Shown here: positions 44,242 through 56,791 of the stretch, one piece after another
How the letters are laid out: each line of letters opens with the position of its first letter
How positions within the stretch are numbered: the first letter of the stretch is position 1
Assembly: GCF_000442275.2 (NCBI RefSeq)
Contig: NZ_KE557311.1
Coordinates: 16,334-80,333 of the forward strand
Reading direction: 5' to 3'
Source: Litoreibacter arenae DSM 19593
GTDB taxonomy: Bacteria; Pseudomonadota; Alphaproteobacteria; Rhodobacterales; Rhodobacteraceae
Length of the DNA stretch: 64,000 nucleotides
Notes under the pieces: generated by a model
Databases searched by the model: none
Told to the model about the DNA's origin: nothing
The model's input: the letters and a program-made list of their open reading frames with translations, nothing else
Position numbers and translations under genes: made by a program

Positions 44242-45156
44242 TTAACTTTGGGCAAGTTTCTGCTCCGTGGCTTCGCGGGCTTTTCTTTTGTCGCGATCCT
44301 TCAGCGCCTCGAAGCCGATAATGACGTCCAGAAGCTCCGTGGTGATGTCGCTTTGGCGGACCGCGCGCATCTCTCCGGTCAACGCCTCCAGTTGTTCATC
44401 TACCGAATGCTCTGCCTGCTGCATCCGCGCCAAACGGGCGGCGTTCTCGGTGACCAGCGCCTCGGCGGCGGCGCGGAACATCTCGGCGAACAGGTAGCTG
44501 CGAATCAGGGCGGCCAGCAGGCGGTCGGGGGCAAGCCGGAACTGCGGCAGGCTGCGGGAGGCCCAAGGCCGATCCGCAAAACCGCGCGTCATGTCGGGGT
44601 CCAGCGGCAACAGGCGCTGCGACACGGGGCGTTGCTGGCCATGCTCGGCGCGTTGCATGAAGACGAGCGAGACGGCAATGTCGTCCGCCCCGCTTTGGCG
44701 CACCCCGTCCAACAGGGTGATCAGACGCCCCGCCAGCCGCGCCAGCCCGTCGGCGGTTGCGGGTGGCAAAAGGGTGGTTTCGGGCGTCAGCCCCTGCCCC
44801 GCCAGCGCGTCTTCCATCTGCGCACCCACACAAATTACCCGCGCATCGGCACCGTGAAGGCGCAGCGCTTCCTCCGCCACGATCTCGTTATAGTTGCCGC
44901 ATAACCCGTGGTCGGACCCGAAGACGATCACGATCCGCACCGCGTCAGTATCCGTCTCAATCGGCAGCGGGCCATGACTTTGGACAAATGCGTGGAAGCC
45001 GTCCAGCACCGTGTCGCGGTAGGCCTCCATGGCTTGGGCCGCCTGCTCATAGGGCAGCGAGTTGATGGCCGACATAGTCTTCATCGTCCGCACGATGCCG
45101 CGAATGCTTTTCATCGTGTCCGTGCGGTGTGTCAGCAGCTCAAGCGTCTGGGCCAT
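44242..45156 (-). CDS. atpG: N-type F-ATPase gamma subunit
   Basis: A 304-residue rotor shaft. The start at 45156 ([11 protein letters not shown]) overlaps atpA by 17 bp. The N-terminal helix [20 protein letters not shown] and [13 protein letters not shown] match gamma subunits. At 304 residues it is near the usual F-type length, but the divergence and N-ATPase operon order (DCQRBEFAG, gamma last) place it in the alternative N-ATPase group. It couples catalytic cycling of alpha3beta3 to rotation of the c ring. Confidence 0.9.
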
Positions 45157-46669
45157 CGGCTTTTTCCATCTGCGAAATGGCCTCACGCGCGGCGGTCACG
45201 ATGTCCGCGCGGCCCTCATCCGTCAGCTTTTCATCCTCGGCAATCAGCGCCGCAATGCCGCGATCATCCGCACGCACTCCTGCGCGGATTGCGGTCATGG
45301 CGGCCACCGCTTGCCCCTCATTCATACCGTCGAGCAACCCTTCCATTGCCGCCACCAGCACCGCCAGTTGTTCATTGGCAGGCATCGGGTCACGCTCCGG
45401 CTGGCGCAGGGCGGTGCGCACTGCCGCGCCACGGGCGAGCCTTGCACGTGTGTCGTCATCCAGCCGCGTACCAAAACGGGCGAACTCCTCCAGCTCCTCG
45501 AATTGCGACAGGGTCACGCGCAGGTTGCCCGCGACCTCGCGGAAGGCCCGGCTTTGCGCCTTGCCACCCACACGGCTAACCGAGACGCCCAGATCGACGG
45601 CGGGAAACTGGTTCGTGCGCACCAAGCGCGGCGACAGGTAAATCTGCCCGTCGGTGATCGAAATCAGGTTGGTGGGAATGTAGGCCGACAGGTTCTCGGC
45701 CTGCGTCTCCACCACCGGCAGCGCGGTGATCGAGCCGTGGCCTTCGGTGAACTGCCCCGCCCGCTCCAGCAGGCGGGCGTGGACGTAGAAAATGTCACCG
45801 GGGAACGCCTCGCGGCCCGGCGGGCGGCGCAACAGCAGCGACAATTCGCGGTAGGCATGGGCGTGGTGGGTCAGATCGTCCATGATCACCAGCACATCGC
45901 GGCCTCTGGCGGCGAAACTCTCCGCCACGGACATGGCGGCGTAAGGGGCAATGTAGGCCAGCCCCGGCGCGTCCTCGTCGCCTGCGGAAATGATCACTGA
46001 TTGCCCCATCATATCCCCGTCGCGGAGCGCGCCGATGACCTTGGCGACCGCGTCCCCGCGCTGGCCTATGGCGCAGTATATGCAGATCACGCCAGTGTCT
46101 TTCTGGTTCAGGATCGTGTCGACCGCAATGGAGGTCTTGCCGGTCTGGCGGTCGCCGATGATCAGCTCCCGCTGGCCCAACCCCACAGGCACAGCCGCGT
46201 CCACCGCCTTCAGCCCCGTCGCAAGGGGTCGCGCCACGGCGGTGCGGTGCAGGATGTCGGGGGCCTCGGCCTCGATCGGGGCAAGGGTCGCAGTGTCCAC
46301 GGGCCCCTGTTCGTCAAGCGGGTGGCCCATTGCGTCGACCACGCGGCCCAGAAGCGCAGGGCCCACAGGCACACTGACCACCCGCCCCGTGCGGCGCACA
46401 TCCTCGCCCGGCGAGACCTGCTCGGACGGGCCAAGCAGCACCACGCCAAGCCGCCCCGGCTCCAGATCGAACACGATGCCGCGCACGCCGGAGGCGAATT
46501 CCAACAGCTCGTCCGCCAAGGCACGGGCAAGGCCCGAGACGATGGCAATGCCGTCACCCACCTCGGTCACGCGGCCAATTTCACTGACCTGAGGCGCGGG
46601 CGGCGGGCTGTCGAGCAAAGCCTGAACCAGATCAGCTGTCGTAGGGGCGGCCATGACGTCATGCGGCAT
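45140..46669 (-). CDS. atpA: N-type F-ATPase alpha subunit
   Basis: A 509-residue non-catalytic nucleotide-binding subunit. [18 protein letters not shown] is the Walker [17 protein letters not shown] and [34 protein letters not shown] the Walker B region and following loop. The start at 46669 (MPHDV) follows AAAGGTCTCAGCG and overlaps atpF by 11 bp; an internal ATG at 46654 is an alternative. The unit order and second-set character fit N-ATPase rather than the housekeeping ATP synthase, whose genes are not in this window. Confidence 0.93.
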
Positions 46670-47423
46670 CGCTGAGACCTTTCATCGCCTGCCCACCGCG
46701 GTCTTCCAGCATCTCGTCCAACCCGTCGAGATAGCTGTCGATGGTCCACGCCACCTGCGCGCCACCCAGTCGCAGGCTCAGGCCGGGCGACAGGGTGTCG
46801 TCGGTGTCAAACCGCAAGGTGACCTCCGGCAGGATCGCCGCAAGCGCGTCGCGCAGGCGGGCTTGCTCCGCATCAGGCAACGGATCGCGGGTCAGCGCCA
46901 CGGCCTCGCGCGCATCGCCCGCCGCATCGCGCAGACTTCCGGCCTGATCCTTCAGGCGGGCTGCGGCATGGGCCACGATTTGCTGCTCCAGCGTCGTGTC
47001 GGCCAGATCGGACAACGCCTTGCCCGTCAACGCCACAAGCGCGGATGCGCCAGTTTGATGCAGCTGGGCGGAGTAGGCGCGCGCCTCCTCCGCGCGGTGC
47101 TTTTCGCGCTCCGCCTGCTCGTCAGCCAGACGCGCGCGGGCCTCGGCCAGCAGCGCGTCGCGTTCCGCCTCGGCGGTGTGGCGCACTTTTTCCAGCATCT
47201 CGGACTTGCTGGCCCGCAGGTCGGCAATCTCGGCCTTGTATTTCGCCTCGGTCTGCTGCGCCTCGGTGCGGATTGCCTGCGCTTCGCCCATGCGGGTGGA
47301 GATCTCTTCCTCCCGCGCGTCGATGCCGTCCAGAATAGGCCGGTAGAGAAACCGTTTCAGCAGCCAGATCAGAACCAGAAAGTTGACGATCTGGGCCCCG
47401 ACCGTAATCCAGTCAATCGACAT
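46659..47423 (-). CDS. atpF: N-type F-ATPase b subunit (peripheral stalk)
   Basis: A 254-residue protein, longer than the usual b subunit of about 160, as in N-ATPases. The start at 47423 ([20 protein letters not shown]) gives one N-terminal helix, followed by a long charged coiled coil (residues 45-150). The C-terminal 100 residues resemble delta ([20 protein letters not shown]), consistent with N-ATPases lacking a separate delta gene, the b subunit carrying that role. The gap to atpE is 4 bp. Confidence 0.88.
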
Positions 47424-55332: not shown

Positions 55333-55348
55333 GTCGTTTCCTTTCAGG

Positions 55349-56791
55349 TCAGAGCAGCGCGCCAACGCTGAGTGCAGCGGAGATAAACACCAGCAAGATC
55401 AGCATCAGCGGCCAGATGAATACGATCCAGCGGTCATAGGACACGCGCCCGATGGCCAGCCCGCCGATCACCACGGCAAAGGTCGGGTTAATCAGGTTCA
55501 CCAGCCCGTTTGCGGATTGATACGCCGTCACGACAAGATCGCGCCCGACGCCGGCGAAGTCTGCCAGCGGGGCCAGAATTGGCATCGACAGAACCGCCAG
55601 ACCGGAGGAGGACGGCACGAAAAAGCTCATCCCGATCTCGATCCAGAACATCAGGTTGATGAAGGCCAGATCGCCCAGGCCGCCCAGCGTCTGCTCGGCG
55701 CTGAACAGGATCGTATCGGCAATCAACCCCTGCTCCATGATGACCACGATGCCCCGCGCCAGCCCGACCACAAGGGCCACGCCCAGCAGGTCGCGTGCGC
55801 CGTCCACGAAGGCGCCGGTCAGCTTCTTCTCGCCCATGCGGGCGACCACGCCGACCACGATTGCCGCCCCGAGGAACAGCGCGCTCATGCGGGCCATCCA
55901 CCAGTCCTGCGTGGACACGCCCCAGATCATCACGGCGAAGGTCGCGGCGAACAGCACCAGAATAATCTGCTGCGTGCGGGTCAGGGTCGCCTCGTCGTCA
56001 TCTGCGTCTGCAAGGAACAGCTTGCGGTGCGCGTCGGCCTGTTTGGAGACGACCGAGCGGGCGGGATCATTCTTCACCTTCTGCGCGTAGCGCATGACGT
56101 ACGCGGCACAGATCGCCAGCCCGCCCAGCAGGATCAGCACCCGCAACATGATGCCGTCGGTGAACGGAATACCCGCCGCGTCGGAGGCGATAACAGTCGC
56201 AAACGGGTTGATGGTCGAGCCCAGCGTGCCGATGCCCGCCCCGATCAGAATGATCGCCACCCCCGTCACCGCGTCATAGCCTGCGGCAATCATCACGGGG
56301 ATCAGGATGGCATAGAAGGCCAGCGTTTCCTCGGCCATGCCGTAGGTCGTGCCGCCCAAAGCAAACAGCGACATCATGATCGGGATCATCCAGATCTCGC
56401 GTCCCTTCATGCGGGTCATCGCGGTGCGGATGCCGGTGTCGATCGAGCCGGTGGCGTTCACCACGCCCAGAAACCCGCCCAGAAACAGCACGAACAGCGC
56501 CACGTCGATGGCGTTGGCCGCGTAGCTGTCCGGGTCATAGAACCCCGCAATCGGGGCCAGCATCACCGCAACGAAGCCCTGCGGGTTGGCGTCGACCTGC
56601 TTGTAGGTGCCGGCCACGGCGATTTCGCGCCCGACCTCCTCGCTCATGATGCGGTCGTATTGACCTGCCGGAATGATCCAGGTCAGCACCGCGACGAGGA
56701 TGATCAGCAGGAATAGAATGGTGTAGGCCGTAGGGAAGCGTGAGGCGAGGTCGTCCTCGGGGTCACGCGCGGCTTGCGTCTCATCGGTCAT
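55349..56791 (-). CDS. YfcC-family transporter, likely arginine/ornithine exchanger (ArcD role)
   Basis: A 480-residue membrane protein with about 12 helices. The start at 56791 ([11 protein letters not shown]) follows [45 protein letters not shown] is the YfcC/DcuC-like N-terminus; [18 protein letters not shown] is the conserved late motif. YfcC proteins next to arcA are regarded as arginine-ornithine antiporters. First gene of the operon; start 120 bp from the FNR-type box. Confidence 0.85.

Follow-up and report, generated by a model that had tools for sequence, protein, structure and literature searches.

Introduction

The N-type ATPases, encoded by atpDCQRBEFAG, reportedly owe their founding description to Dibrova et al. 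in 2010, and the arcDABC operon for arginine deiminase in Pseudomonas aeruginosa, which Gamper is said to have described in 1991, is said to be under Anr/FNR control. Here we analyze a 64,000-nucleotide stretch of the Litoreibacter arenae DSM 19593 genome (hereafter the window), in which a complete arginine deiminase (arc) operon runs directly into the genes for an N-ATPase on the minus strand at 44242-56791. We lean towards reading this locus as an oxygen-regulated, horizontally moving bioenergetic cassette, through which arginine would provide ATP and ATP a sodium gradient. Two further systems are close to it. The functions of N-ATPases are called 'largely unexplored' in the available part of PMC5376962, where the enzyme of Burkholderia pseudomallei is reported to be proton-coupled, with a c17 ring and the c-subunit motif E-T-M. 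Similarly, the available part of PMC3281130 describes an arc module carried by Tn6097 of Paracoccus.

An arc operon is joined to N-ATPase genes

The minus-strand run comprises 15 genes in the order arcD (YfcC type)-arcA-arcB-arcC-hdeD-SDR-atpDCQRBEFAG, and its largest gap is 21 bp. With start codons picked by eye, the gaps from arcD through atpD measure 16, 14, 3, 5, 21 and 19 bp, and the junctions of the atp section include four 4-bp overlaps, three longer ones (10, 11 and 17 bp) and a single gap of 4 bp. All 15 genes were matched by Pfam and NCBIfam profiles (AtpR only below cut-off). Indeed, the profiles and junction measurements bear out the first-pass annotation, which had claimed a 15-gene minus-strand run with gaps of 21 bp or less and many 4-bp overlaps. 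No internal terminator stands out, since 13 terminator-like sites were counted on both strands of 42900-58000 as compared to 11.0 in shuffles, and a scan for sigma-70 promoters stayed at chance level and was uninformative.

The arc half holds the complete pathway set in one cluster, namely arginine deiminase, ornithine carbamoyltransferase, carbamate kinase, and an exchanger assigned by family. The first gene, arcD (55349..56791), encodes a YfcC/DcuC-type exchanger (PF03606 4e-122; NF008611 below cut-off), and the product is probably of the kind named ArcE in PMC5300872. The adjacent arcA (54103..55332) encodes an arginine deiminase with matches to PF02274 (2e-117), to PDB 1rxx (1.5e-154) and to NF002381 (548.3 against a cut-off of 414), while TIGR01078 falls just below its cut-off (475.2 against 489.1). 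Its C-terminal CMSCP motif is kept and aligns with CMTCP of 1rxx; the cysteine of this motif, which we take to be the catalytic residue of arginine deiminase, is therefore retained. Ornithine carbamoyltransferase is encoded by arcB (53087..54088; NF003286 and TIGR00658 above cut-off), and carbamate kinase, the ATP-forming step, by arcC (52166..53083; TIGR00746 above cut-off; PDB 8crv 2e-102). For both ArcA and ArcC, solved deiminase and carbamate kinase structures are matched over nearly their full length. Two genes separate arcC from the ATPase: an hdeD-like gene for a DUF308 membrane protein (51588..52160, with a start that may be 52151; PF03729 4e-30, NF007577 below cut-off) and a gene for an SDR-family oxidoreductase (50796..51566; PF13561 9e-68).

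The ATPase half shows the N-ATPase hallmark order, beta-epsilon-Q-R-a-c-b-alpha-gamma, and has no separate delta gene. Several of the 'alternate F1F0' NCBIfam models (beta, alpha, a, b and gamma) match strongly yet below their curated cut-offs. The genes are atpD for beta (49394..50776; TIGR03305 719 bits, cut-off 752), atpC for epsilon (48987..49397; TIGR03166 111.9, above its cut-off of 100.1), atpQ or ATPase_gene1 (48709..48990; TIGR02230 above cut-off), and atpR for the N-ATPase marker subunit (48410..48712). The last is weak by profile (PF12966 2.9e-5, 24.9 bits against 26, just below cut-off; TIGR03165 21.9 against 55.5) and is named partly from its position, which its length fits. Next come atpB for subunit a (47715..48419; TIGR03306 282.5 bits, cut-off 302.1; NF004481 above cut-off), atpE for subunit c (47428..47718; TIGR03322 142.6, above its cut-off of 130.85), atpF for a long form of subunit b (46659..47423; TIGR03321 186.2 bits, cut-off 224.7), atpA for alpha (45140..46669; NF009884 above cut-off, TIGR03324 below it at 645.1 against 750.5), and atpG for gamma (44242..45156; TIGR03323 209.5 bits, cut-off 282.35). 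Contig C4 encodes a second subunit a, which is F-type-like, and it is from this subunit alone that an F-type enzyme is judged to be present.

The c subunit carries P26, E30 and E63-S64-T65..Y68, which correspond to what we take to be the letters of the Na+ type (helix-1 Q/E with helix-2 E-S/T-T..Y). A full-motif rule for Na+ c rings is given in the available part of the ProAD paper (PMC11738941), and the 'ESTxxY' form of the motif is printed in that of PMC9927469. Indeed, the EST motif was found in the c subunit of all 27 surveyed loci that have arc genes upstream of the atp genes on the same strand. The window N-ATPase is predicted from its c subunit to translocate Na+, and, taking the direction from the N-ATPase literature, it would run as an ATP-hydrolysing pump.

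These features bear on an acid or pH stress operon, in which ammonia from arginine would neutralise acid, HdeD would aid acid resistance and the ATPase would expel protons, a role proposed for the N-ATPase of Burkholderia pseudomallei. The window operon does include an HdeD-like gene, as do 9 of the 129 N-ATPase loci compared below; a GadB-like fragment and an AspT-like protein (named by eye) adjoin arc at locus L039 of genome G009; and the c17 ring of B. pseudomallei is proton-coupled according to the available part of PMC5376962. However, the c subunit of the window has the Na+-type motif, unlike the E-T-M of that enzyme, HdeD occurs at only 3/36 of the linked loci, and the boxes upstream are of the FNR (oxygen) type. 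We consider such an operon highly improbable, and its proton-driven form is disfavoured by the c-subunit motif.

The linkage recurs in particular groups of bacteria

To place the window among its relatives we assembled 129 distinct N-ATPase loci, after removal of five duplicates from 134. With arcA found within 10 kb at 36 of these loci, 27 had arc upstream on the same strand, five were divergent and four had arc downstream; 80 of the loci are the best 80 of 553 confirmed contig matches, and these hence lean to window-like enzymes. Four further loci have arcC without arcA in view, including L061, since its contig ends, and L090, where arcB and arcC lie 8-10 kb off. The flank was shorter than 9.5 kb at 27/129 loci. 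The spacing from arcC to atpD, measured match to match, is at most 130 nt in 22/27 arc-upstream loci.

The window's order was surveyed in 244 genomes, of which 51 encode an N-ATPase, 42 encode ArcA and 19 encode both, an enriched co-occurrence (Fisher p 9e-5). The count of 51 follows from 52 genomes at the search threshold, one weak match (G212, only 4.9e-33) having been removed; additional weak or broken copies carried by G153 and G210 were left out, and the copy of G247, with one atpB stop, was counted. In 13 of the 19 genomes with both systems the two are linked within 10 kb on one contig, as compared to about 0.1 expected from random placement (binomial p 4e-26, under a null that takes no account of shared ancestry). 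Six of these 13 have arc upstream, four are divergent and three have arc downstream, and in the other six of the 19 (G026, G084, G107, G125, G172, G206) arc and N-ATPase lie on different contigs of draft genomes. Similarly, in 101 genomes of a Marinobacter-containing family, a survey centred on the known N-ATPase carrier G366, whose N-ATPase groups with Marinobacter rows in our tree, an N-ATPase was found in 35, ArcA in 43 and both in 26 (p 5e-6); the two are linked in 11, all with arc upstream on the same strand. Where a window-like N-ATPase (E <1e-100) accompanies ArcA in this family, 11/15 are linked. Thus the arc-atp order, which might have turned out to be rare or chance-like when relatives were searched, is neither within these two groups (13/19 linked in the order, 11/26 in the Marinobacter-containing family), and recurrence in both surveys rules out an accident of a single genome. 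Linked loci occur in both Alpha- and Gammaproteobacteria.

Arrangements, trees and possible repeated assembly

A tree of the N-ATPases (FastTree; AtpD, AtpA, AtpB and AtpE concatenated; 121 rows) could accommodate all but eight of the 129 loci, in which AtpD or AtpA was missing or short, or stops were too many. Each layout is restricted to one clade of this tree: clade A includes 27 arc-upstream loci among 67 rows, clade B four divergent loci among 24, and clade C four downstream loci among 22. In a tree of ArcA (IQ-TREE; 58 rows, of which 23 are hand-chosen unlinked ones; the split arcA of L103 was left out), the arc-upstream label requires four changes as compared to 19.3 in shuffles. A 35-row clade (100/100) gathers all 26 arc-upstream rows, all five divergent rows and 4/23 unlinked rows, and the four downstream-layout rows belong to a separate ArcA lineage. 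The nearest rows to the window ArcA are from Roseovarius, Sulfitobacter and Jannaschia, which, together with the FnrL match given below, fits a genome of the Rhodobacterales. The divergent arc operons are sister to five window-type ones (100/97), yet adjoin N-ATPases of different clades. As judged from these trees, either a different pump replaced the one next to arc or arc itself was transferred to a new pump, and the link would have been kept or re-formed either way. A single joining is unlikely, because three layouts occur in three pump clades with two ArcA lineages. ArcA and N-ATPase distances are in fact concordant, with r 0.90 over 34 linked loci and 0.86 over 26 arc-upstream loci, and 0/2000 permutations reached as high a value.

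N-ATPase loci also occur on plasmids. In Roseicitreum antarcticum a conjugative plasmid carries yfcC-arcA-arcB-arcC-hdeD-atpDCQRBEFAG (RefSeq annotation), lacking the SDR gene, with 54-94% protein identity to the window and an IS256 transposase nearby. A Sulfitobacter plasmid has ackA and a fused pta-MaoC gene divergent from its N-ATPase, and two other plasmid N-ATPase loci have neither arc nor ackA, so that the 4 examined of 49 matching plasmid records comprise one with arc, one with ackA and pta, and two with neither. The arrangement might also be a case of neutral hitchhiking, in which its pieces would have come together by chance on a mobile island and been spread by transfer, with no functional tie between them. 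The conjugative plasmid with its transposase, the higher G+C of the cassette (62-66%, as compared to 56-59% in its flanks), and the patchy distribution with scattered labels on the N-ATPase tree would all suit this explanation. Against it stand the three layouts, found in as many N-ATPase clades and with two ArcA lineages, the tight junctions, and the presence of the pairing in Alpha- and Gammaproteobacteria. Hitchhiking is about the most improbable of the explanations that we considered.

Individual loci show variants of the arc genes. At L155 (genome G062) and L077 a carbamate kinase gene stands directly upstream of atpD or of hdeD-SDR-atpD, and arcA and arcB are not in the locus; G062, a single contig, gave no ArcA match, and L155 also carries ackA. 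Such a lone carbamate kinase may be a relic, or may serve some other use of carbamoyl phosphate. In L039 of G009 (about 13544-17326), a member of the window's genus, an APC-type permease-like gene precedes arcA and a nitroreductase-like gene lies between arcA and arcB (both by eye), as though parts had been swapped in place. L096, from Sulfitobacter, has arcA and arcC with no arcB detected between them, and adjoins ackA and pta.

FNR-type boxes and a possible low-oxygen regulon

An FNR-type box, TTAATCTAGGTCAA (56911..56924, minus strand), lies some 120 nt ahead of the arcD start and has one mismatch to TTGAY-N4-RTCAA. Perfect boxes occur within 330 nt upstream of arc in 13/27 arc-upstream loci, and boxes with at most one mismatch in 22/27 (window included) and in 26/36 of the linked loci. 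Controls gave far fewer: 59 permuted half-sites averaged 0.07 loci and never exceeded 2 of the 27, and 24/2580 random 330-mers of the same loci held a perfect box. The window genome encodes FnrL, which scores above the FnrL equivalog cut-off. FNR-type, low-oxygen control of the arc-atp operon would be consistent with these sites. A Crp/Fnr-family regulator is also encoded near the end of the operon (43023..43760, plus strand; PF00027, PF13545), and it was considered as the oxygen sensor and set aside; because it has no N-terminal cysteine cluster by eye, FnrL elsewhere in the genome is preferred.

The same boxes bear on co-regulation without direct coupling. Under this alternative, arc and N-ATPase would share a low-oxygen survival regulon together with polyhydroxybutyrate (PHB) synthase, acetate kinase, CBS and Crp/Fnr genes; ATP from arginine would enter the general pool, the pump would draw on any ATP, and the two would be neighbours because one promoter or island serves both. 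Indeed, FNR-type boxes also precede arc-less N-ATPase operons: among clade A atp operons that lack upstream arc genes, 12/38 show a perfect box no more than 410 nt from atpD (36/2580 for random 410-mers). Furthermore, phaC, SDR, crp, CBS, ackA and pta genes recur as neighbours in varying sets, and the divergent and downstream layouts need no shared transcript. On the other hand, two of the recurrent neighbour modules, arc and pta-ackA, are ATP-forming, the same-strand arcC-atpD junction is tight in 22/27 arc-upstream loci, and the divergent layout puts arc beside an N-ATPase of another clade. Co-regulation of this kind seems to us unlikely, if a serious alternative.

Other neighbours of N-ATPase operons

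Clustering of neighbours revealed the second of these ATP-forming modules, which consists of ackA and a fused enoyl-CoA hydratase/phosphotransacetylase gene (pta-MaoC). Among the 51 N-ATPase loci of the order survey (flank <9.5 kb at seven of them), ackA lies within 10 kb at 7, as compared to about 0.3 by chance (p 9e-9), and arcC or ackA/pta within 10 kb at 21. No acetate kinase was found in the window genome at E 1e-50. Across the 129 loci the neighbour counts are phaC 28, SDR 24, crp 20, CBS 17, ackA 16 and pta 12; the window locus was scanned 11.6 kb upstream, and its phaC at 11.3 kb enters the phaC count. Genes for an ABC-2-type permease and HlyD-type proteins, identified by eye, also recur near N-ATPase operons (10/129 and 13/129 loci). 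The neighbour names ackA, pta-MaoC, ABC2, HlyD, RND and acg were assigned by eye; annotation supports the names ackA and pta-MaoC, and PF00871 matches at the same places further support ackA.

In the window, a gene for a two-CBS-domain protein (43763..44173, minus strand, start by eye; PF00571 1e-28) follows atpG after 68 bp, is convergent with the Crp/Fnr gene, and is a possible 16th gene of the operon. The atp genes are followed by a CBS gene and a Crp/Fnr gene convergent with it in the window and at L047, L049, L050, L053, L057, L085, L095 and L103, and at L156 this pair is placed after the arc genes instead. Upstream of the cassette are a PHB synthase gene (57861-59705, minus strand) and two small plus-strand genes (56994-57425 and 57450-57737), neither of which has a Pfam match; the first, of 143 aa, looks phasin-like by eye, yet for lack of such a match was not accepted as a phasin. 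A short DctM-type transporter piece at 30764-31573 (minus strand) best matches only the C-terminal part of its profile and is possibly a remnant.

Discussion

The recurrence of the arrangement is observed with high confidence, and we hold the following mechanism with moderate confidence. When respiration stops, FNR-type control would turn on one long transcript. The antiporter would exchange external arginine for internal ornithine, and ArcA, ArcB and ArcC would convert arginine to ornithine, CO2 and ammonia with a yield of one ATP per arginine. A second rotary ATPase, encoded on the same transcript, would use that ATP to expel ions, which the c-subunit motif suggests to be sodium. An ion gradient, the membrane potential and low internal sodium could thereby be kept while the respiratory chain is idle, and the ordinary ATP synthase need not run in reverse. 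The single transcript, its induction at low oxygen, the pumping direction, the Na+ specificity and the use of arginine-derived ATP by the pump are all parts that we infer. The initial proposal that ATP from arginine feeds a second, ion-pumping ATPase thus stands as the best reading, favoured by the three layouts, the concordant ArcA and N-ATPase distances, the FNR-type boxes, and acetate kinase as an alternative neighbour; the coupling itself is a matter of inference, and the pairing is far from universal.

Several observations weigh against the cassette reading. The pairing is absent from most N-ATPase loci of the order survey, 38/51 having no arcA inside 10 kb, and the pump therefore does not need arginine. 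In the Marinobacter-containing family, lower-scoring N-ATPases (E 1e-88 to 1e-64) that accompany ArcA are linked to it in 0/11 cases. In a phylum-wide sample of 398 genomes, an N-ATPase was found in 20, ArcA in 48 and both in 4, with no excess (p 0.28); the window genome and G073, which share a family, account for the two linked cases among these four, and another of the four, G366, has the two systems 200 kb apart on one contig. A universal pairing rule is ruled out by this sample, and because co-occurrence does not exceed chance across the phylum, the pairing is a property of certain groups and not of N-ATPases at large. The disregard of shared ancestry in the random-placement null belongs here as well. 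Linkage labels are spread over the N-ATPase tree with only weak clustering (20 changes for arc-upstream as compared to 24.6 in shuffles; 29 for all labels as compared to 34.3, a value as low being reached in 2/200), so arc genes must often have been gained or lost, and joinings are not countable. As for oxygen control, the window box is imperfect, none of the 56 loci in clades B and C and the remainder has a perfect box close to atpD, and the best boxes of downstream-layout arc genes have 2-3 mismatches in 4/4 loci. Finally, the c subunit of the four downstream-layout loci has ETTxxY, not ESTxxY, which leaves their specificity uncertain, and the N-ATPase might also make ATP.

A wider generalization can be offered more tentatively, as a possibility that we do not favour outright. 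N-ATPases may often be one half of portable 'substrate-level ion pumps', in which a dedicated ATP-forming kinase module, based either on carbamate kinase and arginine or on phosphotransacetylase-acetate kinase, is combined with a dedicated ATP-burning rotary pump. Such units would be oxygen-controlled, would provide a second, respiration-independent circuit on mobile DNA, and would have been assembled more than once with partners exchanged. The pairing of an N-ATPase with an ATP-making pathway and oxygen-type sites suggests a testable role for this enzyme, namely sustaining an ion gradient when respiration fails. If true, arginine, sodium and low-oxygen survival would be linked in marine groups (Rhodobacterales, Marinobacter and one Halomonas). 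That the arc-N-ATPase unit can reside on a conjugative plasmid further suggests a portable means of oxygen-free energisation.

Comparison with known systems

Each half of the locus is known already, and the genetic union of arc and N-ATPase would be the new element. By title or abstract start, no published report of such a union appeared among the matches listed, though Dibrova 2010 may mention one. A literature query for joint mention of 'N-ATPase' and 'arginine deiminase' gave no match, and one with 'arcA' gave an unrelated match only. Linkage of N-ATPases to arc is not mentioned in the available parts of PMC11738941, PMC9927469, PMC5376962 and PMC4154653.

With N-ATPases as reportedly described by Dibrova et al., and as covered in the available part of the ProAD paper, the window enzyme shares its gene order, the presence of AtpQ and probably AtpR, a long b subunit, a two-carboxylate c subunit and its standing as a second copy beside an F-type enzyme; unlike the N-ATPases described there, it is joined to a complete arginine deiminase operon. 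It belongs to the same family as the B. pseudomallei enzyme and has a two-carboxylate c subunit like it, but that enzyme is of the proton type, with no arc linkage mentioned in the available part of PMC5376962, whereas the window c subunit reads E-S-T..Y and is of the Na+ type. The Tn6097 arc module, as described in the available part of PMC3281130, is likewise a case of mobile arc genes in a relative within the Alphaproteobacteria; in contrast to the window, it is described without ATPase genes, and 'ATPase' and 'ATP synthase' have 0 occurrences in the main text of that paper. The arcDABC operon of P. aeruginosa shares with the window its enzymes, their order and an exchanger gene in first place, and its upstream FNR-type box has a candidate counterpart, with one mismatch, in the window. 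Unlike that operon, however, the window has an exchanger of the YfcC kind, and its run continues beyond arcC into HdeD, SDR and nine ATPase genes.

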